Origin: Anaspis maculata
Lineage: Eukaryota; Arthropoda; Insecta; Coleoptera; Scraptiidae
DNA length: 64,000 nucleotides
Assembly (NCBI GenBank): GCA_949128115.1
Contig: OX421966.1
Location: 51,705,416-51,769,415 of the forward strand
Direction of reading: 5' to 3'
How positions within the stretch are numbered: position 1 is the stretch's first letter; each line of letters starts with the position of its first letter. Below are positions 1,970-55,648 of the stretch, piece after piece. The notes under the pieces are model-generated. The model had not been told where the DNA came from. It saw only the letters and a list, made by a program, of their open reading frames with translations, and made no database searches. A program made the translations under genes and the position numbers.

Positions 1970-3412
1970 ACGCAACGAAATTATTGTTGTACTCCTAATT
2001 TCACCCTTTTTCAAAACTAGGAAACTCCCAACTGGTTCAAACAATTCCAATTGTGTTCAAAGCATTTGAGAACTTGATTCTCTAAGTATAGAATCGTATC
2101 AATTCGAAGGTTGATAGATGTCAACTTGAGTTTCTACAGGTGGTTAAAGAAAGTAATGCAACATTTATAAAGTTTGACATACTCCCATTTTAAACAAAAC
2201 TATATATTCCTTTTGATTTTCAGCATCAATGGTATCTAGCTAAAGCTCATATCTCGAAACAGTTTTGATTTATCTCCATATCTCTTTCATTTACAGGTGA
2301 CATATGAATATATCTGTCCAAGAATCCGACCGGGTAGAGAATTAAATGAAAATCAACATTGTTTTCGGATGATTCTGAACACTCTTTGATGATTCATGAT
2401 TGATTGTGGCAAGAATTTTGGGTCCAAATTGCAGCTGCATGTTTTCCAAAGAGAAGCAGCGGCATTACTCACCTGCAAATGCCGTAACCAATGTTACAGA
2501 AAACAGAGTGTAGAGAGAACTGTCTATTCCCGATTGTTCCGAATTTTGAAACGTTGGTTACGAACATTTCCAGACTAGCCAGCGAGAAAGCTGATCCTTC
2601 CTCAGAAACACGCAATTCTTATTTCGTCCTTTCCTTCATCGATCATTCTTGTGACAATCAATCGTGAAACATCAAAGAGTGTTCATAATGAATGCCTCAT
2701 CTGAAAACAATGTTGGTTTTCATTAATAAATGAATAAATAAATTTGATTCCTCACCTGGGGCCGTATTCTTGAAACGGGGAACTGAGTTCACATTTTTAG
2801 TTGCTAGGCAAGGGCCAATCATAGCTCTCCTTGCATAGCAACACCGCATGAGAACTTTGTTCCTCGTTTCAAGAATAAGGCCCCTGGTCGGATTCATGGA
2901 CAGATATTCATATTCAAATGTCACTTTTGATGCCACCCTATATTTTGAATGTTGGTCTTGAGCCGATTTTGTTTATTGGGTTTTCTTACCTAAGGCTTCA
3001 ACTTCAATATGAGCCCTGGATTTGAAAAATTGGTAAAAAAGGGAAAATGTTATCACCAGAAGACCAAAAAGTCGTTTTGTTGATACCACCCTGTAAATAA
3101 AAGAGATAGAGAGATAAATCAAAAACCGTTTCGAGATATGAATTTTAGCTACATGCCATTGATGTTGAAATTCGAAAGAAACGGTTTTATTTTAAATGGA
3201 AGTATGTCAAACTTTATAAATGTTGCACTACTTTCTTTAACACCCTGTAGAAACTCAAGTTGACATCTATCGACCTTCGAATTGATATGATTCTATACCT
3301 AGAGAATCAAGCTCTCAACTGCTTTAAACAAAATTGAGATTGTTTGAACCAGTCGGGAGTTTTCTTCTTTTGAAAAAGGGTGAAATTTGGAATACGACAA
3401 CATGTTCGTTGC
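1970..3412. repeat. Three-level concentric foldback
   Basis: The outer arms start near GAAACGCAACG on the left and end near CGTTGCGTATT on the right. A second pair of ends lies inside, at 2137 (TA|CAGGTGG) and 3247 (CACCCTG|TA). A third pair lies at 2294 (TA|CAGGTGA) and 3093 (CCACCCTG|TA). The flanks of each inner pair are themselves complementary, so all levels share one centre near 2520-2600. The right arm also carries a 125-bp MITE and about 165 bp of extra sequence flanked by CCACCCTRTA repeats; both are absent from the left arm. Confidence 0.8.
2759..2883. mobile_element. MITE copy 2 with a 3-bp target duplication (CTG)
   Basis: The ends read GGGCC...TTCTTGAAACGGGG and the inverse TTCAAGAATAAGGCCC. 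It is flanked on both sides by CTG (2756-2758 and 2884-2886). The opposite foldback arm near 2325-2335 keeps the equivalent site without the element, which supports a clean 3-bp duplication. A 3-bp duplication and GG-rich ends resemble PIF/Harbinger non-autonomous elements, although CTG is not the usual TWA target; the family assignment is an inference. Confidence 0.8.
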
Positions 3413-4583
3413 GTATTTTAGTTCCAGTTAACGTCCAGTATTAGCAACAAATTTAAATGCGCCTTCAGTTAAAACGATCTTTAAGGTTCACGTTCACCTC
3501 AAAAATTTTATGTTTCATATTCAAAACTTGAAAAAATATACCAAGTGGATGGTGGATAATACCAGTAAAGATAAGAGATTTATTATATAAAATTGGCAAT
3601 GACAAAGTTGTAGATAAAGTCACTGAAACTTAAATCCAACCGTGGGTTCTAATAACCATGCAGTTGATGCACCCCAACAAAATCAAAAAAAAAAGTTGTA
3701 GAGAATTCATTGTACTACAAAAGAGTTCCCGAGGTCATAATTATGTCTATTTTCTTTAGCTAAGCCGTTGATTGTGCTCGAAGTTGCGGGCCAGTCCAGT
3801 AAAATGGAAAAACCCTCAGTATTACATTACCACTTGAATGCTGTGAACACAACAAGGGACATAAAAACATCATAAGCGACAAAGTTGAAGAGAAATAATA
3901 CTAACGCACGTAGGGTCTGTGACAGAAGAGTAAAAAATTTTAAGCGTGATCTATCACAAGAAAGCGTTACTCTCAAAGAGTGAAAAGAGATTTTGACAAA
4001 GATTTTAATTTTTGATAACTCGATTCAAAGCCATTAGAAAACTTTGTCCAGACTTGGAAGTATTTTTCCAACTGTCACCTGTCAGATTTTAAAAAATGTC
4101 GATATTCAAAACTTCAATTTTATTATTCAAGATCTGTCTAATGGATTGGAACCAAGTTCGACAGGAAGCAACGCAACAAAATCATTGAATCAAGTCTGCA
4201 GTTTGAGTTTTCCATCATTTCCCAGTCGGGCGCTACGAATTTTCAAATTTTCTTCTCGTTGTTACCACCCGAGACGGCCGCTCATCTCGGTTTGGACCAG
4301 AACGACGACGCGACGCCTCGCTTGGTGCAGGACTCAACTCAGACTCTCTTTCTCGCTCGGGAATTGACTTTTCTCGAAACATTCCAACTGATATCGGTAG
4401 TAAATTACATTGGGCGTCGACTAAGCTTATTTTTAAATGCAACACGGTCCCGCTTTATCGGCAGTGATTTTTTTCAAATTGAAACTTGCACTTTCCGTGA
4501 AATAAAAAAAATCGCAGAGCAAACTTTGACCTGCGGTAAACTTCACAAAGTATCTATTTGAAGTGCAAAGTTACCATGTGTCA
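3413..4583. other. Unannotated stretch
   Basis: AT-rich DNA. Short overlapping ORFs at 4044-4561 on both strands show no recognisable domain. A moderately GC-rich patch near 4255-4375 is not attributable to any family. Confidence 0.4.
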
Positions 4584-5088
4584 TGGTTGGAGAGAAGATT
4601 GAACTAATTTTTGAAGGGAAAATTTTTGAAATCAGACCTACGGTTTTCGAGCTTTCCCCCTCAAAAAATGCAGATTTTAACTTTTTATCCCAAAAACATC
4701 ATTTAAAATATTGTTTTCCCCTTTTCGACCTTACATTTGGCCATAGGAGTTTTGACACTTTATTTCCAGTATTCATTACATCAACAGTTTTATATACACA
4801 GTAATTTTCTGCAACCCAATCATTTCAACGTTTTTAGCGATGTTTGGCCCAGAAAAGTTTTCTTCCGCCGGCGCCGGCTGGATTCGAACGTCGGTCTGAG
4901 AGGACGCGATGAAATATGGGTTGCGAGCGCGTTAGTTTATGCTTCTGAGCCACCCAGCCGACAAAAAAGAGAAGATTGAACTAATTTTTGAAGGAAAAAT
5001 TTTCGAAATCGGACCAACGGTTTTCGAGCTCTCCCCCTCAAAAAATGCAGATTTTAACTTTTTATCCCAAAAACATCATTTAGTTTAG
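4584..5088. repeat. Direct repeat pair of about 120 bp around a tRNA-like segment
   Basis: Bases 4584-4707 recur at about 4963-5088 in the same orientation with few differences; both contain GAAGATTGAACTAATTTTTG and AAAATGCAGATTTTAACTTT. The spacing is about 377 bp. Between them lies a GC-rich segment with tRNA-like promoter boxes on the minus strand. The arrangement could be a local duplication or ends of a composite insertion. Confidence 0.8.
4855..4972 (-). mobile_element. tRNA-like segment, possible SINE head
   Basis: Read on the minus strand it begins GTCGGCTGGGTGGCTCAGAA, resembling a Pol III A box. It later contains GTTCGAATCC, matching the B-box consensus GWTCRANNC, at tRNA-like spacing. 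A stem is suggested by the complementary GC-rich ends (GTCGGCTGG and CCAGCCGGC). A cloverleaf was not computed, so this may be a decayed tRNA or a SINE fragment. Confidence 0.5.
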
Positions 5089-5985: not shown

Positions 5986-6037
5986 TATTATATAATAACT
6001 ATATCATTTAATACTAGAAATGTTTTTGTTTTGCTTA

Positions 6038-15400: not shown

Positions 15401-15588
15401 GATTGAAAACGGTGCATAAGCTACCCATAGTACGTTGTAGGGGAATCGTATTCGTAGGGAAGTAATCGGAAAGTCAAAAAAAAAATCTTTGACGTAACTA
15501 AATTCCTCGAGGTATAAAGACCTAAGGTTTGATCGTGAATTTCATATTTGCAAAGGTTTTTGAATAATTTGTCTCCATAACATAGGTA
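12434..15588. other. Gene-poor stretch, nothing firm
   Basis: Short scattered ORFs only, none with a recognisable domain. A GC-richer patch at about 14105-14345 contains AGCTAGCCGGGCCTAGCTAG-like self-complementary sequence, but no feature class can be assigned. Confidence 0.4.
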
Positions 15589-16912
15589 CAGGGTGTTCAC
15601 GATAAAATTCACCCACCCCCTCTAGGAGATTCCCCTTTGAGATATTTTGAAAAACTGAAAACTTTTTCTCAACGATTTTTCCCAGGGATCTTGAATCGAT
15701 CGTCTAAAAGTTTTCAATTGGTACCGTATACAGGGTGTGACATGTAACTTTTTTATTTCAAATACAACACCCTATATTTTATTACGTCATTTGATGAAGC
15801 CTTCCTTTCTGATTACAAAGTTATATAACATTTATGATTTATTTTGACAAAGAAGCTGAGAAGCGGTCAAAAAAATAATAATACAGGGTGATTCAAAAAT
15901 GGCGCATTTCCTCTCGTATACGTTATGGGAGACGTTGGCGGAGCACGGAAAAAATAGTAAAAAAAATTTGGCTTGTTTCTCTTTCGAGTTATGAAGAGGT
16001 AAAGTTGAAAATTCAACTTCTTCAGTTTGCATGATTTTGAAGCAAGGCATTGTTAGTCGCGAAAAATCACATGCCTTTAGTAGTTCCCGAATAAAAATTT
16101 CTCTTGCAATTGAGATTTGAGTCGTATTTTTAAATTTTAAAATCCGTCTTCCACCTCAAAGGTGCCGTGAAAATACATTCGGCAAGTATGCTTGGTATGG
16201 TATGGCAGGTTCTACGGAGTTTCCAGGGTAACAATAACAATACATTTATGCTATTGTAAGGTACCTCTTTGATCTGAAGGTGCCAGGTAGGTACTAATGC
16301 GATGCTGCCAGATTGAACAGATTAGTTTTTGTTAATAACTCGCAAATCAGAGCCGATTTTTTTTTTATATTATTTTTCCCATGCTCCGTTAACGTCCACT
16401 ATAACGTGCCCGAAAGGAAATGCGCCATTTTTGAATCACCCTGTATACTTGAGTAGTCAAATAAATTGAAAATTAAAAATTACGCGACACCCTGTATTAG
16501 GAAGGAATTAGACCATTTATCCATGCAGAGTTGAATTGTGCAGACAAAATGCTGCGAGAATAACTTTTTTTTAAGTGAACTGTAGAAACCGAAGCCATCT
16601 TGCCGCGAAACAAAATTATTTGGCTACTTATTTTATTATTTTTTCGACAGCTTACTTGTCAAAATAAATCATGAGTGTTATATATATTTGTAATCAGAGA
16701 AAAAGGTTCCACCAAATAACAAAATAAAATATAGGTTGTTGCATTTGAAATAAAAAAGTTACATATCACACCCTGTATACGGTACCAATTAGAAACTTTT
16801 AGAGGATCGATTTAAGGTCTCTGGAAAAAATCGTGGAGAAAAAGTTTTTAGTTCTTCGAAATATCTTGAAGGGGAATACTGGAGGGGGTTGAATTTTATC
16901 GTGAGCACTCTG
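15589..16912. repeat. Nest of three TA-flanked foldbacks
   Basis: The outer element is 15589-16912 (CAGGGTGTTCACG and CGTGAGCACTCTG). The middle element is 15731-16775 (CAGGGTGTGACATG and CATATCACACCCTG). The inner element is 15884-16443 (CAGGGTGATTCAAAAATG and its inverse). Every end is flanked by TA. The middle element interrupts the outer one at the axis of a perfect palindrome: GGTACCGTA on its left and TACGGTACC on its right. The inner one sits at the edge of the middle element's loop, which has about 190 extra bases including another GACACCCTGTA terminus. There is no coding frame. Confidence 0.88.
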
Positions 16913-17219: not shown

Positions 17220-18085
17220 AGGGTGCTTAAAGGTTCAGGCTTCATTTTATTTGAGCTCCATCTGAGTCCGGTTTCGATAAGCCAGATCGGTTTTGCATTT
17301 TCAAGTGGAATACTCTCGGAAAATTCAAAGAATTTTGAGAAGGATTTCAAAAAATGTTCAAGAACCAGTTACCTCTTGTTCAAAGAAAAATTGATGGAAA
17401 TTTGTTCACGGGATAAAAAGTTACAAATTTGCAATTTTTCCAAGAAGGAAAACTCGAGATCCTTTGGTCCTATTTCAAAAAATTTTTACCTCCAGAAGTT
17501 TATTCAATCTTTTCTCCAACTAAACTGCTTGACAATTGAACTGCAACACCTAAAAATTAGGTGCGTTTTCAAATTAAGATAGCTCGAAAAATATCTGACG
17601 GATTCCAGAAATTCAGGCATGTGAGGAAGGATCATTTCTTTGACTATCGAGTGCTGGTATTGATGATAAGTTTGATTGCACAATTTGTCATATACAGGGT
17701 GCCAACGGAGAGTGTGCAGATTTGGGCAATCTTGCACCTTGTGCAACTTTCGAAAAAAAAGTCCGAGATTTTTTCTATCGCGTGCTTTTGAAAGGCTGAA
17801 TTATTATGCCGAAACGGTTTTAGAATTTTGACCCTAACTTTTTTTTTCAAAAAATTGTGCTCAATTTTTTGAAATATGCACTTTTTGATCAAGAAAAAGA
17901 AATAGAGACATTGTTTGTTTTCAAACGGCGTCCATATTGAATTTACTTACGAAGACTTTCATTTGAGCCTCCACATCCCCTAGAAACTACCCCTTTTGGG
18001 ACACCGTCTCACAACAAGATATGCAATGCTTCATTTAAAAGGCCTAAGAAACGTACTCATTAATAATTGGATTGAAATAAGTATA

Positions 18086-19005
18086 CTAGGATGACCCCAC
18101 ACGTACAGCTCCCTAAAAACTACCTCTTGACTTCAAGGGACAGGGTTGGTATGATAAGACATGCAATAGATGAAAATTCTAAAAAACGTCTTTTTCAACT
18201 GTTCCACTAAAAAAGTGATGCTACACGATGACCCTTTACGTAGGTCATCCCAACAGTAGCTAACCTCTCGAAAAAAGAACTACCCTTAAGAAAACCAGTA
18301 CTTCCGCAATACCTCATTTTTAGGATTTTTTATAAATCTGTCGCAATAGTTTGCCGCTACGATGATTTCAGTCACATATCTACCCGAAACTACCCCTTCA
18401 ACTACCCCTCCAATATCGCATAGCCTCTACCTTGATGCGTTATTTACGAGTTGAAAGAACTTTTGCCTACTAACCGTTTCATTGAAATGATGGTGTTTTC
18501 TACGATGATAGTACAAAACCTTTCCTGAAACTACCCCTAGAAATCGCCCTTTCAGTAAAAGGTATGCAATACCTCATTTGGAAGCTCAGAGAAGGTGCGA
18601 TTGAATAAGTTCAAAATGATTTCGCGATGACCTTACACGCATCAAGGTAAAGGCTATGCGATATTGGAGGGGTAGTTTCGAAGGGGTAGTTTCGGGTAAA
18701 TATGTGAATGAAATCATCGTAGCGGCAAACTATTGCGACAGATTTTGAAAAAATTCCAACAAATGAGGTATTGCGAAAGTATGTACTGGTTTTTCAAAAG
18801 GTAGTTCTTTTTCCGAGAGGGTAGCTACTGTTGGGATGACCTACGCAGAGGGTCATCGTGTAGCATCACTTTTTCAGTGGAACAGTTGAAAAAGACGTTT
18901 TTTGAAATTTTAATGTACATATTGCATGTCTCATCATACCAACCCTGTCCCTTGAAGTCAAGGGGTGGTTTTTAGGGAGCTGTACGTGTGGGGTCATCGC
19001 AGTAT
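18086..19005. repeat. Foldback inserted in one arm only
   Basis: The ends read CTAGGATGACCCCACACGTA and TACGTGTGGGGTCATCGC. The arms are about 400 bp each, with the centre near 18540 and many CTACCCC/GGGGTAG repeats inside. The matching place in the right arm of the enclosing palindrome (near 21210) has no insertion. Termini differ from the CAGGGTG family. Confidence 0.8.
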
Positions 19006-19137
19006 TAGTCCGGATGCTAGTTGAAAGTACCTTGCATTTTTTGATGAGAAGATGCCACTCGATGAAAATGTTCCTTGCATCGTACTCTTCCGATCCAGAA
19101 AGGTAGCCATCAGCGCCATCCATGCCGGCGGCGTATA

Positions 19138-21072
19138 CAGGGTGATACAGAGAAAAAAAGTTGAAAAATTATATTTAAATAACCGAAACATGTGGAGACG
19201 TGTAACTCACCACATACATTAACTATTTTATGCTCATGAAGTCACAGCAAACTGTTCTTGATTACCTTGAATCGTCTTTGAAATGTAGGGGAAAACATGA
19301 TAAAAAAACAAGAACACTCTTTTTCCCATAAATAAGTAATTCTTCGAGATATTGACACAATACTTGTTATTTCTACAAAAAGTAATGTAAGAAATCATAT
19401 GAGCTGGGTAGCCAATTTCTGAGCCAACTATTTCCAGAAATACGATTGTCAACTTTTTTTTACTCTTGAGCACCATCTTGAATCTGCCTTGTGAGGCATC
19501 GTTGAAAAAGTGATTGGTTATTATAATAATGGTAACATGGAATCATTGCATCGCAAAAACAACCTACTCATCATAATTTAGTGACCTCTTCAGCGGGAAA
19601 GATATGTCATTCACGTATTTTTTGGCTCTTCAAAGCTTTAGTGCCCATGATGGCATTTGCAACATCTGGAATGGTGAAATATGTTACGCATTATGAACCT
19701 TGATGTACTTTGAGGTAGCCTACCAAGTTTCACCATTATCAATTGAGAGGTTTGTTCTTAAAAGCTGTTTGAACAAAATTTGTGTCGTTTTTTTATGAAA
19801 AATACAAAATATTGGGTCTTTCACCCTTACTTGATCCCTCACTGAGGATAGCCTGGAACCGAAAGTCTCGGGATTTTTTATGATAATGGTTTAGTGGGAA
19901 GTGCTCTTCAATGTTTAGTTGTGAAAAATTGCATAGTTGCGTTCAGATTCCAGACAGAGAGCGACAAAGAAATTCATGCAGTAAAAAAAGACATAAATTA
20001 CAGTAGAGAAAAAAAAACAGCTCAGAGCTAGACTGAAAGCTGTCTGGAGACCTTGCTTTTTATAACATGAATGTGCAATTTGGTACACTGTTAGAGCCTT
20101 AAGTTAGTCATGTTTCAAGCCTTTCACCCACGCTTGAGAGTCTCACAGAACCTGTGTATGGCGGGAAGCCTATCTAAAAGGGACATTTCCGGAATTTCTC
20201 CGTTGCAATTAAAGTTGTGTCTTTTTTCACTGCATGAACTTCTTTGTCGCTCTCTGTCTGGAATCTGAACATAACTATGCAGATTTTGACCACTACACAT
20301 TAGAGAGCAGTTCTCAGTGAACCATTAACATAAAAATTTTGCAGACTTTCGGTTTCAGGCTTTTCTCAACGAGGGATCAAATAAGGGTGAAAGATCCAAT
20401 ATTTTGCATTTTCCACAAAAAAATTAAACACATTTTGTTCAAACAGCCTTTGAGAACAAACTTTTCAATTGATGATTGCAAAACTTGGTAGGCTACCTCA
20501 AAGTACATCAAGGTTCATAATGCGTAACATATTTTACCATTCCAGATGTTGCCAATGCTATCATGGGCACTAAAGCTCTGAAGAGCCAGAAAATACGTGA
20601 ATGGCAATTCTTTTCCGCCGAAGAGGTCACTAAATTATGACGAGGAGGTTGTTTTTACAATGCAATGATAACATATCACCATTATTATGATAACCAATCA
20701 CTTTTTCAACGATGCCTCACAGGACAGATTCAAAATGGTGCTCAAGAGAAAAAAAAAATGACAATCGTATTTCTGGAAATAGTTGGCTTAGGAATTGGCT
20801 ACCCAGCTCATATCATTTCAAACATTACTTTTTGTAGAAATACCAACTATTGTGTCAATATCTCTAAGAATAACTTTTTTATGGAAAAAAGAGTGTTTTG
20901 GTTCTTTTTTCTGTTTTTCCCCTACTCTTCAAAGACGGTTCAAGATAATCAAGGGCGGTTTACTGTGACTTCATAAGCATAAAACAATTAATGTATGTGG
21001 TAAATTACAGGTCTCCACATGCTACGGTTATTCAAATATAGTTCTCCAACTTTTTTTTTCTGTTTCACCCTG
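19138..21072. repeat. Innermost foldback of the 17.5-21.8 kb nest
   Basis: Ends are TA|CAGGGTGATACAG and CTGTTTCACCCTG|TA. The arms are nearly 1 kb and pair through blocks such as CGAAAGTCTCGGG with its diverged partner near 20342. It lies on the axis of the enclosing palindrome, with GGCGTA on the left and TACGCT on the right. Confidence 0.87.
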
Positions 21073-21935
21073 TATACGCTGCCTGCATGGATGGCGCTGA
21101 TGGCTACCTTTCTCGATCGGAGGAGTATGATGCAAAGAGCATTTCCACCAAGTAGCATCTTCTCATAAAAAAATGCAAGGTTCATTCCATTTTATGCAAC
21201 TAGCATCCGGACTATATCCTTATTTCAATCCAATTATTGACGAGTAATTACCTTATGCCTTTTAAATGAAGCATTGCATATCTTGTTGTGAGACGGTGTC
21301 CCAAAAGGGGTAGTTTCTAGGGAATGTGGAGGCTCAAATAAAAATCTTCGTAAGCAAATTCAATATGGACGCCGTTTGAAAACAAACAATTTCTCTATTT
21401 TTTTTTCTTAATCATAAAGTGCATATTTCAGAAAATTTAGCACAATTTTTTGAAAAAAAAAGTTAGGGTCAAAATTCCAAAACCGTTTTGGCATAATGAT
21501 TCAACCTTTCAAAAGCAGGCAATAGAAAAAATCTCTGATTTTTTTTTCGAAAGTTGTACAAGGTGAAAGATTGCTCATATCTGCACGCTCTCCGTTGGCA
21601 CCCTGTATATGACAAATTGTGCAATCAAACCCATCATCAATACCAGAACTCGATAGTCAAAGGAATGACCTTTCCTCACATACTTGAATTTTTGAAATCC
21701 GTCAAATATTTTTCGAGCTATCTCAATTTGAAAACGCACCTAATTTTTAGGTGTTGCAGTTCAATTGTCAAGCAGTTTATATGACTCGCAGCTCGCAGCA
21801 AGTCTGCACCTAAAATAGATATTCCGTGGGGTTTACCGCAGTTCGAAATTTGCACTGCATTTCTTTTGTACTCACGAAATGTGCAAGTTTCAGTTTGAAA
21901 AAGTAACCGCCGAAAAACCGGGACGGTGTCGTATA

Positions 21936-22974
21936 CAGGGTGGTCCTCGTTTTATGTCATTAAATTCAAGGATCAATAGAAAATGAAAAATGAAGTGGAC
22001 TTTCTCCAGAAAACATATTTGAAAAATGCTTAATAACAGAGATACAGCCCTTCAAAGTTGGAAATAAATAATCGTTTTTTCCGCATAACTTTTGAACCTT
22101 TTAACCGATTTCAAAATAGAACCAAAGGTTCACTTAAATTATCCCCTGTCGAACAATCATAACATGTTTCATAAAAAAGTTTCAGGAGCGTAGACATCAG
22201 GGGGTGTTCCTACTTTTCCCCCCCTATTTTTCACTTACCAGTTATTTTTCAAAACTGTTCATAATTTTGAATTCTACGTTCAATTTAGAAGAAAAAGACA
22301 CTCTTGCAAAATTTTGATTAGAGGCTTCGCTTAGAAGATATTTGAGTTTGAAATTTTGGAAAACATGCCGAAATCGCCACTTTCCAGAATAACCCAAATT
22401 GTTTTTTTCCTGAAAATTTCTCGTGTTTTGGAAAAAATGGTGGTTTATCAACTAAGAAATTCTAGAAAACCTATTTCAGCTGAGAAATCTTGAGTTTTTT
22501 TTGGATTTTAATTTTTAGACCTTTGAAAGTGGCGATTTCGGGATGTTTCCCAAAGTTTCAAACCCAAATATCTCCTAAACGAAGCCTCTAATCAAAATTT
22601 TGCAACAGTGATTTTTTCTTCAAAACTGAACGTAGAATTCAAAATTATGAACAGTTTCCAAAAATAACTAAGGGTGGAAAATAGGGGGGAAAGTAGGGCC
22701 ACCCCCTAATGTCTACGCCCTTGAAACTTTTTGATGGAACATGTTATGATTGTTCGACAGGGGATAATTTCAGTGAACCTTTGGTTTTATTTATAATCAA
22801 ATCGGTTGAGCGGTTCAAAAGTTATGCGGAGAAAACGATTATTTATTTCCAACTTTGAAGGGCTATATCTCTGTTGTTAGGCATTTCTCAAATATGTTTT
22901 CTGGAGAAAGTCCCCTTCATTTTACATTCTCTATCAATCCTTAAATTTGATGACATAAAAGTCGGACCACCCTG
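21936..22974. repeat. Complete foldback G (1.04 kb)
   Basis: Termini are TA|CAGGGTGGTCC and GGACCACCCTG|TA, with arms of about 500 bp and a short loop near 22460. It lies inside R1 copy 1, which is not palindromic there, so this is a simple insertion. Diverged partial copies are at 28238-28600 and 55660-56125. Confidence 0.9.
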
Positions 22975-23595
22975 TATATTCAAAAATTGGCCCAATGCAA
23001 TCTATTTACTTTCGAATCTGTTGTAATTTTTCGAAAAAAGTCGATCCCCGAGCAGGAAAGAACGCCTGAGTAGAGTCTTGCACCAGATGCGAGTAATCCT
23101 GGTCAGAACCCAAGTAAGCGGCCGTCTGCGGCCGTCTGGGGTAGTAACGACCAGAAAATATTTGAAAAGTAGCGCTACACTTAGAAACGGTGAAAATAGA
23201 AGATTTTGTTTATTATTTTGTTGTGTTGCTTCCTGTTAGGAATGACAAAGTTTTAAACTTTGACATTTTTCAATATTTGACAGATGACAGGTGAAGAAAT
23301 ACTTTCAATAATTTTGAATACAGTTTGTCAAAAGCTTTCAAATGCAAATGACATACAGCAAGTCAAGTTCCCTGAGATTATAACTCCTGTCATTTTTTGA
23401 TAGTGACATTTTCGTTCGACAGATGACAGCCAAAAACTAATGGGAATGGGCTTATTCGACAGCAAAACTATGTCTGCATACTGCGGCTGCGGCTGTTATT
23501 TAGGAAGACTACAGACAGACATACGAACACATCCACAGACAGACATTACTCCGCAAATGGTCTTGATCAACTCGGGGGACCTCACAATGGATATA

Positions 23596-25049
23596 CAGGG
23601 TGGTGAAAATTTCGATTCTCACCATTGGTATCTTGGAAACGGTAAGAGATACGAGGTCGGTTAAATCAGAAAAAAGTTGCACATTTTTGTGGCGATTGAG
23701 AATCTAAGAAGAAACTTTGAATATTTTGATTGGTTTACGATTTATCACGAAAAAACTGAAAATTTTGATTTCAGAAATTATTTTTCTTCTTTCCAACCAT
23801 TCAAGCTATTTCAATCAAACTTGGTAGTTTTATTTTTTGATCACTCCGAGTCGATCAACGTTGACAGAAATTTTCCAGGCCTTCTAGATGTCAAATTATG
23901 ATAGTCAACTTTAGTTTTTCTTATGGCCGCCATATTGGATTTTTGCACTAATAGATAGAGAAAATAATTAGCTTTCCGAATTAGTAACCAACATGTTCTT
24001 TTCATGACATTTTTAGCGTCAAATTTTGAAATTTTCGTAAATTATTGACAAAATCGGGAATGCTTTGAAAAACAATTGAAATATTATCAATAGCAACAAC
24101 AAAAGCAGACAGATTGTGTCCAATTGACGTATCTAAGGGCTTGATACCAATGCAGGCGCAAAGTTTGGGACGGCGTAACTCGCCAAATACAGCGCGGTCT
24201 GATTGGTTGTTTCACTGACGGCGGTTTCAGTCCCAACTTGGTATCGAGCCGTAACTTCTTAATCGTGTTTTGTGCTTGTTTGTACCAAGAGTTCATAAAT
24301 TAAATGAGTCAAGGGTGCCTGTGAATTCAAAAACGTCTGTCGAAACTAGGGTAATCCTTACTCCTTTTCTAATAAATTTGTCAAACTTTAACAAGAACGA
24401 TGCTAGTTCCGACTGACGTTTTTGAACTCACAGACACCCTTGATTATTCAATTTATGAACTACCGGTACAAACAAGCACAAAACACGATTAAGAAGTTAG
24501 ATACGTCAATTGCACACCATCTGTCACTTTTTTGTTGTTGCATGTTGCATGCTATTGATAATATTTCAATTGTTTTTCAAAGCATTCCCGATTTTGTCAA
24601 TAATTTACGAAAATTTCAAAATTTGACGCTAAAAATGTCATGAAAAGAACATGTTGGTAGCTAATTCGGAAAGCTAATTATTTTCTCTATCTATTAGTGC
24701 AAAAATCCAATATGGCGGCCATAAGAAAAACAAAAGTTGACTATCATAATTTGACATCTAGAAGGCCTGGAAAATTTCTGTCGACGTTGATCGACTCGGA
24801 GTGATCAAAAAATAAAACTACCAAGTTTGATTGAAATAGCTTGAATGGTTGGAAAGAAAAAAAAAAATTTCTGAAATCCAAATTTTCCGTTTTTTCGTGA
24901 TAAATCGTAAACCAATCAAAATATTTAAAGTTTCTTTTCAGATTCTCAATTGATACAAAAATGCGCAACTTTTTTCTAATTTAACCGACCTCGTATCTCT
25001 TACCGTTTCCAAGATACCAATGGTGAGCATCGAAATTTTCACCACTCTG
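23596..25049. repeat. Foldback H, with a MITE in its left arm
   Basis: Ends are TA|CAGGGTGGTGAAAATTTCG and CGAAATTTTCACCACTCTG|TA. The arms are about 0.65 kb, with the centre near 24370. The left arm carries a 115-bp MITE that the right arm lacks. Mirror ORFs at 23677-23901 and 24744-24968 encode near-identical 74-residue strings and are artefacts of the symmetry. Confidence 0.88.
24137..24251. mobile_element. MITE W, copy 1, TAA target duplication
   Basis: The element is 115 bp and starts GGGCTTGATACCAA, ending TTGGTATCGAGCCG. It is flanked by TAA on both sides. The right arm of the surrounding palindrome (near 24490-24510) retains the unfilled site with a single TTA/TAA. A 3-bp TWA duplication and GG-rich ends fit a PIF/Harbinger (Tourist-like) MITE. 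A second copy lies in the BEL element at 34393. Confidence 0.92.
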
Positions 25050-25174
25050 TATCCCTCTTCATCTCAAAATTTTTTCTAGTGCTTTCACAATACTTCCTCT
25101 TCTCGTTGGTTGGTGGACCGGGAAAGTAAAATGATGAAGAAAATTTTTCTTTCATCATTTTTTCTGACTTCCTG

Positions 25175-33242: not shown

Positions 33243-34406
33243 TCAGCGTCCCATCCGATTCCTGTCTTCCACGCTATTTGCAGGATCAATTTTCCTTTCA
33301 CCGTTATCATTGCAAGGAATCCTAATGGATCGAAGACACTCGTGATTAATGCTAAGGCTTGTCTTTTTGTAGGAATTTTTTGATCGTTGTTGATTATTTT
33401 TTTTTAATTTTGTGAAAATTGAGCTTAAAACGAAACTCATCCTTTTCTGCCCCCCAAAAAGACCTGGTACTCGTTCTGTAGGTAATTGAGTCTCTTCTTC
33501 TTCGGTCATTTTAGCGCCTGTTGTTTTTTGATCTTGAGGAATCTCGTTCAACACTTTTCTCGAATTAGACATCCAGTTACATAAGAAAAATCCTCCTTGC
33601 TGAAGAATATAAAATACTTCTTTGTATCTTTTGATCGCTTCTTTTTCGTCGTCAACACGGTCCAAAAAGTCATCCACGTAAAATTTTTTTGAAATAGCTT
33701 CAACAGCTTCTGGATATATTTCCTTGAAATTCTCCGCATTCTTCTTTACTATGTATAAAGCACAGCTCGGGCTGCAAACCGTTTCAAAAACCATAACCTG
33801 CATTCTAAACGTGTCCGGCTCTCTAGTTCTGTCCATGTCTCTCCAAAGAACTCTTTGCGAATCTCTGTCTTCTAAGTTTATCTCTACTTGGTGATACATT
33901 TCTTTTATATCAGCAGTGAGTGCTATTTGTCGTTGTCTGAATTTAAATAGCACTGCTGGCAATCTGTTCAATAAATCAGGTCCAGTCATGATAGTTGAAT
34001 TCAGACCGACTCCTTTTGTTTTGGCAGCGGCATCAAAGATTAATCTCAATTTGGGTTTATTGGGATTTACTGTGCCAAAATGTGGTAGATAGAAAGTCTT
34101 TGGAGTAACATTTCTCACTTCCTCTTCTGACAGCTTTTTTAAAGACCCTTTTTCAATATAATCATTAACTTTGTCACAATATTGTTTCGCAAATAACTCA
34201 TCTTTATCCATTCGTTTTTCTTGGTATTGCAGTCTTTTAAGTGCCATACTCCTGCTTTCGGGCAATTCTTTCACTTCTTCTTTCCACAACAAACCTATCG
34301 ACCATCTTCCTCCAACTCTCTTTGCGGTGTTTCCCATCATTTTCATCGCTTTTACATCTTCTTTAGAACGTTCATTTCCTTTCATTATCTTAGGGCTCGA
34401 TACCAA
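33243..34406 (-). pseudogene. BEL pol: reverse transcriptase region
   Basis: The palm is recognisable from KPKLRLIFDAAAKT, LTADIKEMYHQV (motif A, catalytic D) and KKFYVDDFLD (YVDD, motif C, about residues 245-255). These are characteristic of BEL/Pao. The frame is lost near 33300-33400. The following RNase H segment (VELHVICDASEEAYAVVAYF) continues in another frame at 33310-33026 and then ends abruptly. The upstream end abuts a MITE at 34393-34529. Confidence 0.93.
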
Positions 34407-34529
34407 GTTGCAGGCGCAAAGTTTGGGACGGTGTAACTCGCCAAATACAGCAGTCTGATTGGTTGGTATCCGCCGTTGCTATGGTAACTGCACTTACGGC
34501 GGTCTCAGCCCCAACTTGGTATCGAGCCG
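34393..34529. mobile_element. MITE W, copy 2, inserted in BEL pol
   Basis: The element is 137 bp from GGGCTCGATACCAAGTTG to CAACTTGGTATCGAGCCG. It is flanked by TTA on both sides (34390-34392 and 34530-34532). It matches 24137-24251 in both ends and in the core GGCGCAAAGTTTGGGACGG. The BEL frame reads up to one flank and resumes at the other in register once the element and one duplicate are discounted. The insertion therefore hit a pol frame that was open at that site. Confidence 0.95.
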
Positions 34530-35375
34530 TTAGTACCAAAGTGTTCTATCATATATCGGGCTTTTACTAGTCGATTCAACTCTTGCCACTTTTCATCTTC
34601 ATCATCATCATTTCCTCTGATATGCAACATGCTTTCACTTTGAGTCATCTCGACCGTTTCGTTTGTCCTTCCGCAAATTGTCCAACCCAGCGGCGTCTCA
34701 GCTGCGACTGGACCGTCTTTAGGACCCGTAACTCTTCGCATGGGGATAATCAAGTCAGCCTGAGGTTGCCCAAATATCATTGAGATTTTCGAATTTTCTG
34801 GCTCTGCAAATGGTACATTTTTAAACTTGTCCCAATGTTTCATTGATAGTTTATTGAAATTTGCTTTTGGTAATTTGTATTCTAAGTTTTCCAGAGTTCT
34901 CACTTCATTTAAAGTGAAGTCCATTGCCTATAGCTCGTATCTTCAAATCAAGTAATAACGAGTCATTGACAGTCGTCATTTTGTCTAAACCGGTATAACT
35001 GAACTTTTCCTTTTCACCTTCCAGCCCCAAAAGATCTGTGTATTTTGAATCTAACAATGTGTACCCAGAAAAAGTGTCTACTGCCGCAAAGATTCTCGTA
35101 ACTCCTTTCGGTCCAAAAATTTGCAGTTTCACTACCTGGTACAGAATTTTACTCGTTGCTTTACTTTTCTGTCTTTTATCGTCAACCATAGCCACTATCT
35201 CGCTTTCTCCTTTCTGAGCATAATCGATGTGCAAAAAATTGGAATGTCTCTTTTTACATCCATTTTTACCACAAGTTGTTCGTCGCCTACAATTGACTAC
35301 TTCATGTTTACCTTTCAGACAAAGGTAACACAATCTATTTTTTCTTACGAACTCTCTTCTTTCTTCCACGTTCAT
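34505..35375 (-). pseudogene. BEL zinc knuckle and protease region, in two frames
   Basis: The first frame (35375-34905) has a CX2CX4HX4C knuckle, CYLCLKGKHEVVNC, followed by CGKNGCKKRH. A retropepsin-like segment follows, AAVDTFSGYTLLDSKY. The expected D-T/S-G triad appears as D-T-F, so either the active site is altered or a local lesion displaced it. The second frame (34924-34505) continues the protease-to-RT linker, with AETPLGWTICGR typical of BEL polyproteins. Confidence 0.85.
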
Positions 35376-35479
35376 CTTCTTGAAATCTGAGCAATCTTGA
35401 ATTTCATGCGGATGTTTGCGAATTGGACAGAACTTTTTGCGTGTGTCTAATTCATTTATTGTCGCAAGAACTGGTTCCT

Positions 35480-36836
35480 TTAGCGCTGCATCTTATTTTG
35501 GTAGGTAGGTATATGTTCTTTCTTGCTTGTAAATTCTCGTTCTCTGGTTTCCGGATTCATTGACAACATTTCACAAACCATTTTGGCTTTTTCGTTTATC
35601 CAAATTGAGAATTCTTGCAGATTTCCTTGCTTACCTTTGTTGTTTCTCTGTTTAATCCATTCTAATCTCATCGACTCGGGAAGTTTTCTCTCAATATCTA
35701 TCATAATGAGTGAATTATTAAGTTCAGTTTCCATTTTTAAAGACAACAAAGTGGATGTCAAATTATCTACCTTTGTAGCCAAATCGATAATATAATTCCA
35801 GTAGCTACCTTTACCTGGCGATATTGTTGACAGTTTTTATTTGTTCTAACAAATTAGCAATTACACATCTTGGCTGACCATACCTGTTTTGCAGTTTTTC
35901 AATTATTTTGGGTACATTTTCTGGAATTCCCATCAAACCTTTTACAAGTTCAAGAGCTTCACCTTTCAAGCATTTGTGCAATCTTTGCAAATTACATCCG
36001 TTATTGTACTCGCATTGATCATTTGTTTCATGGTAAATTCTGATGAATTGGAACCAGTCCTGTAACTTTCCCCTGAATTCAGGTAGATCTTTGCCATGTA
36101 CAATTCGTGCACAGAGCTTTTCAAATATTTTTTCATTGTTATTCACCTTATTTGAAACAGTTTCTTTCAATATTAATGATAACATCTTGAAATTCTCATT
36201 CATACTTGCATGGATGTCTTCATTCTTTGTTTCTTCTATCGCGCTTTGTGGTTCTTGCAGTTCCACCCATTCACGAACACGCGTCTCTAGGTTTTCCTCT
36301 CCTCGAAGTTGTGAATTTCTTATTGAACGTTTGCTGGATTGCGAATTGATCTCTGCATCAAGGTCCGTCTCTTCGATTCGTCTTCGCAAAACTATGAGTT
36401 CTTCTTGTTGCCTTAGTAGCTCCATTTTTTCTTCATTTAATTTGACTAACGCCTCGCGTTCTCGCAATTCTATTGTTAACCTACGTCTATCGACACTCCG
36501 GGAACTAGCCACAGACCTTATTATTGATGCTTCACTTACCCTGTGTGCATCCTCTTGAACTGAACCATTCAAGGAACCGCCGTCGCGTTCTGAGGGAATC
36601 CTCTTACTGTCAGGACCTAGCTCGTCCATTCCATGGGTTTCTCTCGCACCGCCTGGCTGACCATTCCCCGTTCCTGGTATTGTCGTTTCCATTTCTAGCC
36701 GAACCATCCTAGCTTCTTCCCAATTTCCATACCTCACAGGTGGCCGTCCTGCTTTGCTTCTTTGGGTATGACGTCTGGTTGGCATCCCTTCTGACGCAGG
36801 TCCATTTCGTTGCAAACGTTCGTCTGTCACTGACAT
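35480..36836 (-). pseudogene. BEL gag, with a frameshift
   Basis: The first frame (36836-35811, 341 codons) has a charged N-terminal part with a likely coiled coil (ELREREALVKLNEEKMELL) and then a DUF1759-type gag core, LPEFRGKLQDWFQFIRIY and LQRLHKCLKGEALELVKGL. The frame changes near 35800. The gag continues at 35782-35480 (LPESMRLEWIKQR), then reaches the zinc-knuckle region. DUF1759 gag cores are diagnostic of BEL/Pao. Confidence 0.9.
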
Positions 36837-36839
36837 GCT

Positions 36840-37195
36840 AAGTATTAAGTTCTTATTTTATGATCTGTAATACACTAGCCTTTTGTATTGCCAATTATTT
36901 CAAGAGGTAGGCACTGCCTCGACTGCAATTGAATCTTCACGCTTCACTTCAATTCGCTACGCCCGCTGTCTCGCTCGACGCTGCCGACGGTCGTTGTTGT
37001 TTCTTCCTTGTGGACTGTAGATCTATCTTCGCGGTGGTAATCCGGCTCGAAGGACCAATGGTTCGGTCCTTCGCGTGCTCTTGTCGTCGCAATCGTCGCC
37101 GCGGGATCAGACGGAGTCAAAAAAGGGGGGAAAGTAAAACCGCTTATTATTTCGTGACTTTTCATATTGATGTTATTTGCAACACTCCCCAACAA
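36840..37195 (-). mobile_element. Probable 5' LTR/leader of the BEL element
   Basis: The minus strand starts TGTTGGGGAGTGTTGC, consistent with a 5'-TGTT LTR start. It includes TTGGTCCTTCGAGCCGGA, shared with three fragments near 8.5-10.9 kb, and runs to the gag ATG. The LTR/primer-site boundary could not be set because there is no 3' LTR for comparison. Confidence 0.55.
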
Positions 37196-48700: not shown

Positions 48701-51105
48701 CAAAGTAAACTGGCTGGACAACGAAGTTGTCGGTATCGGAAAAATGGTTCCACTTTGAAAACCAATAACTTTTGATTGTCGAATGCGATTTTTATTTTGT
48801 TTGTTGCATTGATTAGCCTCACCTTTCCGTAACCCATCCTGTGATAATGAATGTTGAGAAACTTTATGTTCACTTCATTGTACCCCCATTTGTCAAAAAA
48901 AATTTCATATTCTGATCCAAAAATCATAAAGTGTGATGTCTATTCTCGAAAAACTTTTTGAAATTTTCAAGATTGAAAGTCTAACATTGACGATATAAAA
49001 CTTGTATGTTAAATGTTACACATTTGCCTTATTCTCACGATCTCACGGGAAATTAAGTCACTTCTGATGAATGAATGTTGACATTGAGCAAAACTGTTCC
49101 TACAACAGTTCAGAACAATTTGACTCTCAACATGACCCGAATATGTGGTAGGTATAAGGCCAAGCAGGGGGCATTTTTTTGAGTGGTTGTCTGTGCCTGT
49201 TTATCTAACGTTGAATTTTGTCAGAATTTCAGATGTAGAACATGTTTTTTATGCAAGTTTGAGCCCCTGAATATGGTACTGATGTAGAACTTCTGTTTCC
49301 GAGAGAGTTGGAGCTCCCTGAACATTGAAATTTTTGTGCTTGTACAGGGTGATCCACCGACAGTTCCCCTCCCCCTTTTAGAATTTTTCCCGTTGGAAAA
49401 TAAACTGGCAGCAAAAAGCAATTTTCGTAACAATTTTAACCGTAGAAATCAGATTTGGACAAAAAACTTTTCTATTTTTGCAGTAAAAAAAATCAAATTT
49501 TTCTGATATCCTGTATTTAAATACCTATTGGAAATGATGCAGTTTTTTCTTTCGAAACCGAATAATATAATTTGATATGTGATAATGTTCATAAACAGGT
49601 GTTCATCTTCAAACTTTCCTCTCAAACTTTGTGCCACCAAATTTTTTGCAGGAAAATGCCAAAACAGGTCGATTTTTTTTTCAAGCGGGACTTCTAGAAC
49701 ACGTATTGCCGAATTTTTATCTTTAAACCCTTCACCCCCACCTTACCCTACTTCAAAATTTCAAATAGCATTACCTATCTTGTGATTGTGATCAAATTGA
49801 AGGTGATAAAATTCGCTTTCTGCCAAACATATTTTAAAAAGTTTGAAACCCATCACTTAATCATGTTTTTGCTAGTAAATCTATGCTCCTGAATTAGAAG
49901 CTGAAAGGGGGAGAAATTTCCTTTAAATAACATGAGAAAATTTTGAGGGTTCTGGAAGTGGTCTAAAAAAATGTAGAATATGCTTATCAGAATGAGAATT
50001 GCAATACCTTCAATTTGATGTATCATAAAAGGAATGATATTTGAAATTTTAAAGTAGGGTAGGGCAGGGAGGGGTTGAAGAAGAAAATTTGGCAATACGT
50101 GTCCTAGATGTCCCTTTTGAAATAAAAATGGACCTGTACCAGCGTTTTCTTGGAAAAAAAATTGATGTAAAAAAATCTGAGGTCGGAAGTTTGGAAATGA
50201 ACACCCTGTATATGACATAATCACATATCAAATAATATTAGGTATTCAAATAGGTACAGGATATCAAAACAATTGAAAGTTTTTTTGAAACACTCTATAA
50301 ATTGCAAGATGTAGAAAATTTTTGTGTTCAAATTCTATGGGTCTATGGGACTTCTATGGAAATATTTCCTTGCCAATTTATTCCGGCGGGAAAAATTCTT
50401 ACAGGGGGGGAACTACTGTCGGTGGATCACCCTGTACAAGCAAAAAAAATTCAACGTCCAGGGGGTTTCAACTCCCTCGGAAACTAAAGTTCTACATTGG
50501 TACCACATTCAGGGGCTCAAACTTGTACAAAAAACACATCTGAAACTCGACGAAATTTATCGTACGAAAACAGGCAGTGACAACCGCTCAAAAAAATGCC
50601 CCCTCCCCTACTTGGTCCCACACCACATATTCGGGTTGTGTTGAGAGTCACATTGTTCTTGACTGTTGTACAGTCTTGCTTAATGTCAACATCCATTCAT
50701 CAGACGTGACCTAATTTCCCGTGCTAATAAGGCACATGTGTAACATTTAACATAATAATTCATCTTAAATGTTCAATGTTAAGCTTCCGATATCGGTAAT
50801 TCCAAGAACCATCTCGAGACAAGACATTCCACTTCATGATTTTTGCATTAGAATATAAAAATAATATTTTTTTGACAAATGGGGGTACAATGAAGTCGTT
50901 GCAATTTCGCGTCAATTCACGTATCACCTATAGAAGCTCTTCGTCAAGTTTCCTAACATCGATTATTACAGGATGAGTTACGGAAAAATTAGACTAATCA
51001 ACGCAACAAACAAAATGGAAATCGCATCCGGTCATCGGAAGTTATTGGTTTTCAAAGTGGAGCCATTTTTCCAAAACCGACAACTTCGTTGTCCAGCAGT
51101 TTCGA
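48701..51105. repeat. Three-level concentric foldback L/M/N
   Basis: The outer arms pair CTGGACAACGAAGTTGTCGG with its diverged inverse CCGACAACTTCGTTGTCCAG. The middle element is 49345-50434 (TA|CAGGGTGATCCACCGACAG and CTGTCGGTGGATCACCCTG|TA). The inner is 49596-50208 (CAGGTGTTCATC and GAACACCCTG). The middle sits at CTTG-TA-CAAG and the inner inside GATATGTGAT...ATCACATATC, both symmetric. Mirror ORFs in the two arms are artefacts. Confidence 0.85.
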
Positions 51106-52833: not shown

Positions 52834-53251
52834 GTGGCCCAACGAAAACGCAAACAGACAAATTTTCGGGCACTTGACCTCATTTGTTTGTATACTGTAA
52901 TAAGTTTACTAGACGGACATAAGCCCCGTCATGGGTTCGGCAACAGAAGGGGCTGTAACCTTTCAAAAACACTGAAATTTTCATTATCTTGAAAAAGCAT
53001 CGAATTGAAAAAAAAAAAGCACCGCTGTAAAGACAATTGAACCAGCTCTAAAATGATGTATAACCCAACCCCAATTGTCATTTGGAATTTTCGAAAAAGC
53101 TGCCACCCTGACTACGGGGGTGAAACTCCACGGTTAAATTAATAGCAGTTGAACGTTCCCCTTGAAAGCAAAGTTGATCTGTCCGGGCTTATTTCGAAAA
53201 AATGAGGGCGAATGCCCAAAAATCTGTCTGTTTCGTTTTCAATGGGCCACC
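52834..53251. repeat. Short foldback, GGTGGCCCAACGAAAACG ends
   Basis: Left AGGTGGCCCAACGAAAACG pairs with CGTTTTCAATGGGCCACC on the right. Inner ACAGACAAATTTTCGGGCA pairs with TGCCCAAAAATCTGTCTGT. The loop includes a GC-rich CCACCCTGACTACGGGGG string. No ORF. Confidence 0.8.
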
Positions 53252-53778
53252 CTCTATGCAAAGTTCCATCATAATGTATCCTTCTTACTGAGGTGTACCT
53301 ACTTGATAAGAATCTATTTTTTTTGAATGCTCAAAAATATAGAAACTAAAAATTAAACTATACGAGCACCTATGTAAATATGGTGTACAAAGAAATTGAC
53401 GTATTGTGTGAAACGTTTCGCAAAACCAAGTAAAATATGAGCGCCAGCAACATAGTATAATTCTTCAAGCTGTCAATTGAGCTTTCTCTTCAAATCCCGC
53501 ATTTCTCGACACATGTTTTTATATTGTTACGGTCATAAATAATTCATACTCTTTTGGGACACCTTTGACATAAATTTATCTATCAACTCAAATAGCTTCT
53601 CAGTTACATGTTACATAGCATCCCAGGTATATCATGGTACCAAGGTGACGTTACTAGATAGTAGATATACGTCTTTTTTTCGTCTCCTTTTTGCTCGCCT
53701 TTTCGTGATTACCTACGACTATCACGTCATTATCTTTAGCCTTTTTTCTTGAGGGGTTCCTGTTCTGAAGCCATTTGT
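53252..53778. other. Unannotated stretch
   Basis: AT-rich, nothing recognised. Confidence 0.4.
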
Positions 53779-54370
53779 TAAAAAGTGGATTAGTAAAAAA
53801 TCACTTTTGGTGCCTTTATTTTTAAAATAGAAAATTTAAATTAGCATACGACTTCCTTGAAAGGAAATGTATGAGTAATGCTATTTAATTTTGCCGGCGG
53901 TACGGGAATGTATAGAGGAAAACCGGCAGCGTGGTCGGGAGGCAGACAAAGGAACACCGGCGCAGGGAGCGTGGATGTACTGGACATCCGCACCTGCGGT
54001 TCGGGGGTGAAAGACGGAGTCTAGGTCAACCGTGCGCTTGTCGGCCCCAGTGCTTGGATGGACCGACCATCAAACATCCAGGCACCACATTGCGGCTCGG
54101 TAAGTCCGGCGGGTCTGGAAGAGGGGTACAATGGACCCAATAAAAAGGCCTACGTGCCAGGTGAAACTATGTTCCACCAACTCCCCAAATCACATCCAGA
54201 TCCAGCTATGTATTAATTTTCAAAAATTTCAACATTTTAGATTTTTTTTGAAAAATATGGAAATCTAACAGCATTGCCCATACATGGAGAAAAGAAAGTC
54301 GCATGCCAAATTTAAATTTTTATTTAAAAAAATAAAGGTACCAAAAGTGATTTCTATTAATCCACTTTTT
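53779..54370. repeat. Foldback O with a GC-rich loop
   Basis: AAAAAGTGGATTAGTAAAAA...TCACTTTTGGTGCC pairs with GGTACCAAAAGTGATTTC...TTAATCCACTTTTT. The arms are about 110 bp. The loop (about 53893-54210) is strikingly GC-richer than its AT-rich stem. Confidence 0.8.
53893..54210. other. GC-rich insert of unknown identity inside foldback O
   Basis: Contains GCGTGGTCGGGAGGCAGAC, CACCTGCGGTTCGGGGGTG and TAAGTCCGGCGGGTCTGG. A 70-codon ORF (53931-54143) crosses it without a recognised domain. The texture suggests a piece of a non-LTR element or a captured transcript, but no family can be named and there is no second copy here. Confidence 0.45.
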
Positions 54371-54729
54371 CAGCGACATCGCAGAAAAACATTGACAGGG
54401 TGCATGGTCCATCCTAGCGTAATTATCCCATAGCGGTCTTACCAATCAACATAGAGAAAAAGATGTAAGAGAAAAGTTATATGGTTTGATGAAACCTATA
54501 ACCTAAAATTATTTTCAGCTATACAGGATGTGCTATTTTGACGGAATTAACAAAACGTCAATTTTTTTTTAACGGAACATCCTATATTTTTTTGCATTTT
54601 CATGTTCTACTTTTTTAACTGTTTTATGCCTGTATTTTTGTTTTTCAATTGTGTGGCAGTGCTACCAACTGAAAATTGAAAACTAAAAAAAATCGCATTT
54701 TTACAGTTTTCTTGGAAAAATTGTAGCGG
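54371..54729. repeat. Spacer with a small TACAGGATGT palindrome
   Basis: At about 54520-54590, TACAGGATGT and its inverse ACATCCTATA bound a roughly 70-bp segment with AACGTCAATT and TTGACGG inside. The rest is AT-rich and unassigned. Confidence 0.5.
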
Positions 54730-55648
54730 CCTTGCTTTTCAAAACTAAGAGATGCAACTTGACATAGTGATAGTCAAGTCAAAGACCAATAACCTAATGT
54801 CAAAAAAATTGGATTTCTTGATACAGGGCGTTCACAAAAAAACATCAAACTTCATAATTTTCAAAGTATCATAGCTCATTTTTTTCAAACTGCATAATTT
54901 CCCTAATTCCATAACCCCTAATTTTATAACGTAATCTGATAGCTTTTTTTATCCTCTTTCATTTTTACTAGAGGTACCCTACCCTAAACTCCATTTTTTT
55001 CGAGATAATCGAAAATTTTCACAAAATTTGCATTTTTTATTGTTTTTTTTTCAAAAATTGAGTTGGCCGTGATAAATGACAGGCCAGCCAAATAGTACGC
55101 AGCTGTCAGTTAGTCAGTCTGAATACTGTCAAACAAAAAAAAATGGCTTTAACGTAAAAAGAAAACAAAGTTGGATCCTGGATATCTGGATTATTACCAG
55201 AATATTATATCAATCATTTCCTCTCGCGTAAAGTAATTTTTCTTTGTTTGACAATATTCAGACTGACTAACTGAGAGCTGCGGACTATTTGGCTTGTCTG
55301 TCATTCATCACGGCCAACTCAATTTTTGGAAAAAACCAAAAAAATTGCAACAATTTGCATTTTCACAATTTTGTGAAAATTTCCGATTATCTCGAGAAAA
55401 ATAAAGTTTAAGGGTAGGGGTCTCCTAGTAAAAATGAAAGAGGATAAAAAAGCTATCAGATAACGTTATAAAATTAGGGGCATGCCATTTGAAAAAAATG
55501 AGTTATGATACCTCGAAAATTATGAAGTTTGAAGTTTTTTTGTGAACGCCCTCTATCAAGGAATCGCAATTTTTTGACATTGGGATATTGGTCTTTGACT
55601 TGACTATCACCATGTCAAACTTCATCTCTAAGTTTTAAAAAGCAAGGA
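54730..55648. repeat. Two-level concentric foldback S/T
   Basis: The outer arms pair CCTTGCTTTTCAAAACTAAG with CTAAGTTTTAAAAAGCAAGG. The inner element is 54834-55553 (TA|CAGGGCGTTCACAAA and TTTGTGAACGCCCTC|TA). The junction flanks TTCTTGA and TCAAGGA place the TA on the axis of the outer palindrome. The centre is near 55190. Confidence 0.85.

Follow-up and report, generated by a model that had tools for sequence, protein, structure and literature searches.

Seemingly nested palindromes in Anaspis maculata are probably, for the most part, single foldback families with two-part ends

In Foldback and P-superfamily elements the target duplications reach up to 8 bp, and in the Tc1 element Sleeping Beauty the direct repeats are spaced by about 166 bp. 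Bari, another Tc1 element, has three direct repeats of 18 bp in the terminal 250 bp or so at either end, according to the available extract of PMC4877112, and the inverted repeat/direct repeat (IR/DR) group is named in that of PMC4120734. Galileo is described, in the accessible part of PMC3573991, as a P-superfamily element with 7-bp target duplications, the arms of which were extended by recruited internal sequence; the accessible part of PMC3688188 places three transposase sites in its 1.2-kb arms, at about 70, 561-577 and 701-718 bp. Here we analyzed a window, the whole stretch of 64,000 nucleotides, from the beetle Anaspis maculata (assembly GCA_949128115.1, contig OX421966.1, positions 51,705,416 to 51,769,415; source genome of 758 Mb in 50 contigs), in which foldback elements appear to be stacked inside one another. 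We consider it likely that these apparent stacks are mostly single foldback families with two-part ends, and that they can be explained without any mechanism directed at the middle of palindromes.

About ten large palindromes were found in the window, including P1 to P8 and smaller ones. The first-pass annotation had described, at five loci, TA|CAGGGTG-type marks at which palindromic elements lay inside other palindromes on a shared axis. Large palindromes were recovered at all five loci (P2, P3, P4, P7 and P8), and the flanks are mirrored at all eight junctions. The marks themselves are real, but several are degenerate (2135, 2292, 49594 and both P8 marks). The motif TACAGGGTG occurred 143,590 times genome-wide and its reversed control 2,714 times, a number of motifs beyond chance. 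Among the first 100 forward places listed, 25 of the 99 same-strand gaps were shorter than 400 bp (2.7 expected). In the pattern searches the places listed were part of all matches, and in the sequence-similarity queries the best 40 candidates were scored.

A constant spacing was found in the elements that end in TAAACTGCT. The genome pattern TAAACTGCT N{155,185} TACAGGGTG, which corresponds to a spacing of 164-194 bp, showed an inward TACAGGGTG inside the tip in 4,772 arms genome-wide (2,374 + 2,398). The reversed control gave no match genome-wide, the next 31-bp range (gap 186-216) gave 35 matches, and the opposite orientation of the inner motif gave 18. In 86 of the first 100 matches listed, the spacing was 170-172 bp, although 164-194 bp was allowed. 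The 18 listed matches that came with their letters fell into six groups, representatives of which are at most 66% alike over bases 10-80; 17 of the 18 had a spacing of 170-172 bp and one of 183 bp. Among the loci that we sampled (L numbers) and the window, P4, L018 and family A, which forms the outer arms of P7, have ends of TAAACTGCT or close variants with an inward TACAGGGTG. Over these loci the distance was 170-173 bp in 16 of 18 such arms and 183-184 bp in the other two. In comparisons among P4, L018 and a single copy of family A, identity was 67-76% in the tip and 64-70% in the inner 37 bp, while in the spacer it was 51-55%, shuffled sequence giving a mean of 51% and a maximum of 56-57%. 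Constant spacing and orientation across families in which the similarity of the spacer has been lost would be expected from selection on a two-site end.

On this basis we propose that most of the stacks are single foldback DNA transposon families, in which no long reading frame was seen. Each long arm would carry an outermost tip and at least one inward end-like motif TACAGGGTG at a distance typical of the family, 171 bp in the TAAACTGCT-ended elements and 108, 109, 124 or about 140 bp in others. Since the arms mirror each other, every internal site would be met twice, symmetrically about the axis, and would look like a nested element. By analogy with the direct repeats of Sleeping Beauty and Bari, the inner site most likely serves, within a two-part end, as a second site for transposase binding; we infer from the sequence that a transposase would bind there. 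The proposal draws on the fixed spacing and orientation in TAAACTGCT elements, on the occurrence of marks together in families and on an arm divergence that changes little across the marks. If it is right, thousands of seemingly nested arms reduce to one rule, a two-site end at constant distance under selection, and the diverged families become a natural set for testing what makes elements with long arms retain a second site some 171 bp from the tip.

The marks had been read as boundaries of nested elements. In P2, P3, P7 and P8, however, the arms align uninterrupted through the marks, so that a mark alone does not delimit an element. The concentric nesting on one axis was mostly a misreading; P7 is a true composite. 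A comparison of arm divergence layer by layer, as the first-pass annotation had suggested, gave similar values on both sides (p>0.05) at 14 of 16 mark boundaries; the other two are considered below. Moreover, for most marks where other copies could be checked, the layers were found together as a family, an outcome for which that annotation had itself stated that centre targeting would not be needed. This was seen in all 40 of the 40 scored copies of the P4 arm, in the 4,772 TAAACTGCT arms within one spacing range, and in the 124-bp and 108-bp families.

P2 is a foldback at 1970..3414. Its first pair of marks (2135/3249) lies about 166 bp from the arm end and its second (2292/3095) about 323 bp. 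The left marks are degenerate (2135 reads TACAGGTGG and 2292 TACAGGTGA) and their right-arm partners are intact; arm divergence on either side of the first mark was 20/167 and 20/153. The P2 marks, like the inner mark of the P4c element described below, were seen in one copy each. P3 (15583..16918) has its outer end TACAGGGTG at 15587 and its inner site at 15729, spaced by 142 bp in the left and 137 bp in the right arm, and a divergence of 18/139 and 19/143 across the mark. The same outer and inner pair occurs in L009, at 139 bp and on one side only. A micro-hairpin of 48-64 bp, TACAGGGTGT..ACACCCTATA, starts at some inner sites (15729-15776 in the window; 165-228 in L062/L063). P8 (54394..55647) is a right-truncated member of the 124-bp family represented by L062/L063: the stretch 54405-55647 is matched at 84% by the L063 element, over its positions 8-1225. 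Its marks read TACAGGGCG on the left, at 54822-54830 rather than at the 54834 given before, and TAGAGGGCG on the right (55547-55555). The palindrome spans 54730-55647, and what had been taken for an outer layer is an effect of the truncation, as the left arm extends to about 54394 and the right arm ends at 55647.

Other families with constant spacing were seen among 19 stretches retrieved from the first 100 forward TACAGGGTG places listed and picked by spacing. Ten of the 19 belong to such families, of 108 bp (L043-L046), 109 bp (L047, L048) and 124 bp (L049-L052). In three of the four 108-bp copies, the outer and inner sites have 14 bp in common, TACAGGGTGATTCA. Longer stretches of four of these loci (L062-L065) proved to be full palindromes in which the marks recur on the right arm, at spacings of 108 bp (L064), 109 bp (L065), 124 bp (L063) and 120 bp (L062). 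The right-arm motifs are degenerate in L065 and L063, and L062 has an extra motif copy. At 1453-1473 in L062, a 12-bp duplication at an inner site has left two adjoining end-like motifs. L041 and L042 were considered as coding partners and rejected on account of their longest frames, of 104-122 residues.

The shared axis fails in P4 (17521-21779). The left outer arm (17521..18082, forward strand) has the tip TAAACTGCT and the inner TACAGGGTG at 17693, 172 bp in, and the right outer arm (21215..21779, reverse strand) has the inner TACAGGGTG at 21599-21607. A query with 17521-18000, which spans the first mark, gave 1,452 candidates, and the best 40, the window included, were all full length at 95-100% identity. 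After the 562-bp arm, the sequence of 18083-19005 follows in 19 of the 20 copies retrieved from these 40, the exception being L089. This stretch is therefore the core of a foldback of about 2,050 bp, and an off-axis insert at 18083-19005 was ruled out. The host axis lies at 18544, while the junctions 17695/21605 and 19138/21072 are centred at 19650 and 20105. The two P4 marks, centred 455 bp apart, belong to two different elements. The second element, P4c (19006..21214), is a separate foldback with ends TAGTCCGG and a TAT duplication, and its inner TACAGGGTG (19138/21072) lies 130 bp inside the left end. Its site is empty in a P4-type copy, E1 (GCAGTATCC), and reads GCAGTAT-element-TATCC in the window, so that P4c was inserted about 460 bp off the host axis. 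Together with L024 (1567-3394) and the insert in E1, the window element at 19006-21214 represents another type of foldback, which has TAGTCCGG/TAGTGG ends and 3-bp AT-rich target duplications (TAT, AAT).

The insert in E1 bears on the idea that transposases favour the middle or the hairpin loop of palindromes already present, whereby elements would accumulate concentrically. In E1 (L066+L068) and E2, which are 99.95% identical, a 2.1-kb palindrome, TAGTGG..CCACTA, with target duplication AAT is flanked by GAAAT and AATCGCCC; the window has GAAATCGCCC at this place. The insertion point, 18544..18545, is the midpoint of the P4 foldback. It is empty in the window. Of 20 further copies, 19 are uninterrupted there, L108 with a reversed loop and the other 18 in the orientation of the window; L100 has unrelated sequence. 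The flanks directly beside the insert are not mirrored, which makes this an insertion into the loop, and the near-identity of E1 and E2 shows the composite to have been copied. In E1 the arm divergence of the core (0.026) is below that of the outer arm (0.073, p=0.0016) and that of the midpoint insert (0.077, p=0.0003), which counts in favour of axis targeting. In the copies compared, no element boundary lies where the outer arm passes into the core, and gene conversion or a mosaic origin is possible there. A single inverted duplication for the whole E1 stack was rejected in view of the midpoint element's own target duplication and empty site and of the different core divergence; flank copying seeded by a hairpin was rejected for the insert in view of the unmirrored adjoining flanks and the 3-bp duplication.

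Two side observations concern the P4 midpoint. The loop of the P4-type foldback L108 (G000:C3:13512886-13513006) is reversed relative to the arms, as recombination between the arms would yield. In L104, L105 and L106 the midpoint reads CTAGCGATCGCTCC, which contains a perfect 10-bp palindrome, and in the window and several other copies AGAAATCGCCC.

The axial case in E1/E2, which was not among the eight junctions, is matched against two clean off-axis insertions. One is P4c; the other, L009 2007-2725, lies in a host arm about 549 bp off the axis, with TA duplicated and an empty site in the sister arm (CTATTGTACGTC). Of the palindrome-in-palindrome insertions with an empty site, one of three is thus axial and two are off-axis. 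Three insertions are too few to settle targeting; they show that off-axis insertion occurs. Outer elements with an empty axis had been suggested as a check. The window supplies one at 18544/18545, but for the CAGGGTG marks no empty palindromic host was found among the 15 paired TACAGGGTG elements in the sample and the window, 264 kb in all, the shortest of these elements being 564 bp long. We consider axis targeting, which the data do not support, quite unlikely as the source of the stacks; if two-part ends account for the marks, mirrored transposon ends within palindromes are no evidence of it. At the right end of the L009 insertion (2685-2725), about 40 bp of tip are kept and are followed by sequence that resembles, by eye, the end of the L016 foldback (TAGACTAGGATC), which suggests module exchange between families.

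P7 (48707..51102) differs from the other loci in being a composite, in which family A arms (AAACTGCTGGACAACG) are mirrored around a TACAGGGTGATCC foldback (49343-50436). The latter has its own inner mark at 49594/50210, of which 49594 reads AAACAGGTG; the 171-bp site of family A is deleted on the left arm of P7 and degenerate on the right. A query with the P7 outer arm gave 1,547 candidates, of which the best 40 were scored. Of 12 family A copies retrieved, eight lack the inner element and are not palindromic at the junction. In these eight, the reverse complement of arm 319-1 begins no more than about 20 bp beyond arm position 637, leaving 320-637 unmirrored (the left arm of these short copies was compared from position 339 on), whereas P7 itself mirrors all 637 bp. 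The TACAGGGTGATCC element was found with other flanks in L059 (70% over 411 bp, spanning the second mark of P7) and in L056 (80%) and L054 (78%), over about 119 bp each. As these eight family A copies lack the inner element and the inner element has other flanks elsewhere, the first P7 mark is a true composite junction. The second mark is part of the inner TACAGGGTGATCC element.

The composite probably arose by copying one arm and its flank to the other side. The first-pass annotation had offered inverted duplication of segments with half-elements as one of its two explanations, and for P7 it fits, given those eight of 12 copies. In a general form, a nested element or internal segment beside one arm would be copied in reverse on the opposite side, by a hairpin-primed or gap-repair process, to give mirrored layers. 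L009, which has the outer and inner arm of P3 on one side only, is consistent with it, as is the like outcome TIR1-F1-F1-TIR2 in Galileo, described in the accessible part of PMC3573991. However, the short family A copies differ mutually by 2-12% and form one clade beside more diverged composites in an unrooted tree. They could thus be deletion products of the composite rather than its source, a choice that a tree without a root leaves undecided. Nor does this process explain why diverged families have a constant spacing of 171 bp. Inverted-repeat extension may be a source of long arms in general; as the explanation of the stacks we regard it as possible but doubtful.

Several observations weigh against a two-part end as the explanation of the marks. 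The tip TAAACTGCT and the inner motif TACAGGGTG are dissimilar, whereas IR/DR direct repeats resemble each other, and the internal sites retain the preceding TA, which a mere binding site need not do, though TA was part of the search. The number 4,772 refers to arms bearing both motifs, and the 108-, 109-, 124-bp and other spacing families were sampled from the first 100 TACAGGGTG places listed and selected for spacing. L055 and L057, one family by BLAST, have spacings of 155+147 and 181 bp, so that spacing is not constant there; L054/L056 (148 and 145 bp) and L059 (261 bp) have a common outer tip region. No second inward site was found in the left arms of P5 (the TACAGGGTGGTCC foldback, 21932..22978), P6 (the TACAGGGTGGTGA foldback, 23593..25052), L027 and L024, a foldback with ends like those of P4c; the flanks of P5 and P6 are not mirrored. 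In the divergence comparison, the second inner site of L062 (p=0.020) and the second mark of P7 (p=0.035) fall below 0.05, uncorrected. Two of the 16 boundaries have no clear left-arm mark (P7 48880, L021 4150), and several of the 16 come from related families. Control splits without a mark gave p=0.006 in P6, 0.48 in P5 and 0.87 in L027, and the P6 value makes the divergence test weak by itself. The first mark of P7, finally, is a real composite junction.

Some of these points would suit ancient nested insertions, in which each inner mark would be the terminus of a formerly independent element that had entered a small palindromic host, and the composite would later have become a family. The retained TA, the absence of the P4c inner mark from L024 and the occurrence of P7's TACAGGGTGATCC element with other flanks in L059, L056 and L054 are in keeping with it, and CMITE-IN of corals is a mobile composite that arose by insertion of a miniature inverted-repeat transposable element (MITE) (PMC2872659). 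On the other hand, each of the six TAAACTGCT groups would have needed an insertion at 171 bp, or else one event was followed by a strict constraint on spacing, which again amounts to function. We regard ancient nesting as quite unlikely. A further reading is that of two-headed ends, a TAAACTGCT tip with, 171 bp inside, a complete, foreign-looking end (TA + CAGGGTG) that equals the tip of a second abundant superfamily in the same genome. We consider this unlikely. If it were true, different transposases could cut a foldback at one pair or the other, as alternative transposons nested on one axis by design.

In the remainder of the window, P1 occupies 1-958. The open frame at 33243-36857 (reverse strand) resembles a BEL/Pao-type retrotransposon, and that at 62849-63968 (forward strand) a non-LTR (long terminal repeat) reverse transcriptase; both resemblances were judged by eye. 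The arms of P6 (23593-24119) diverge unevenly, 10/127 and 9/398 with no mark between, perhaps by gene conversion.

Compared with known systems, the two-part ends proposed for the foldbacks resemble the IR/DR group of Tc1 elements (Sleeping Beauty, Bari, Minos, Paris, S) in two respects. The target duplication is TA where it is readable, as in L009 2007-2725 and in E1 and E2, where the TAAACTG tips have a TA on either side (there without an empty site), while other stack elements (TAGTCCGG, TAGTGG) have 3-bp duplications. Each inverted repeat holds at least two sites that point the same way and keep a fixed place, as seen in the TAAACTGCT elements (4,772 arms versus 35 and 18). Unlike in that group, the outer and inner sites of the TAAACTGCT families, TAAACTGCT and TACAGGGTG, lack the similarity that marks IR/DR elements, and the arms reach about 1 kb. 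Long arms, several internal sites and arm extension recall Galileo/Foldback of Drosophila, as far as the accessible parts of its descriptions go, but the duplications here are TA, TAT or AAT and not of 7-8 bp. CMITE-IN offers a parallel to E1/E2 in that insertion into a small element gave a new mobile composite (PMC2872659), although its ends are of the piggyBac TTAA type. MITE_83.0 of Rhodnius, with the tip TACAGGGTGACC and listed as Tc1-like with a question mark, has the TACAGGGTG tip in common, and the available part of PMC4678618 describes no internal second site in it. The architecture is of the kind known from Bari, Galileo and the coral composite; it is unusual in that the tip and the inner motif differ and that the inner motif is the tip of other families.

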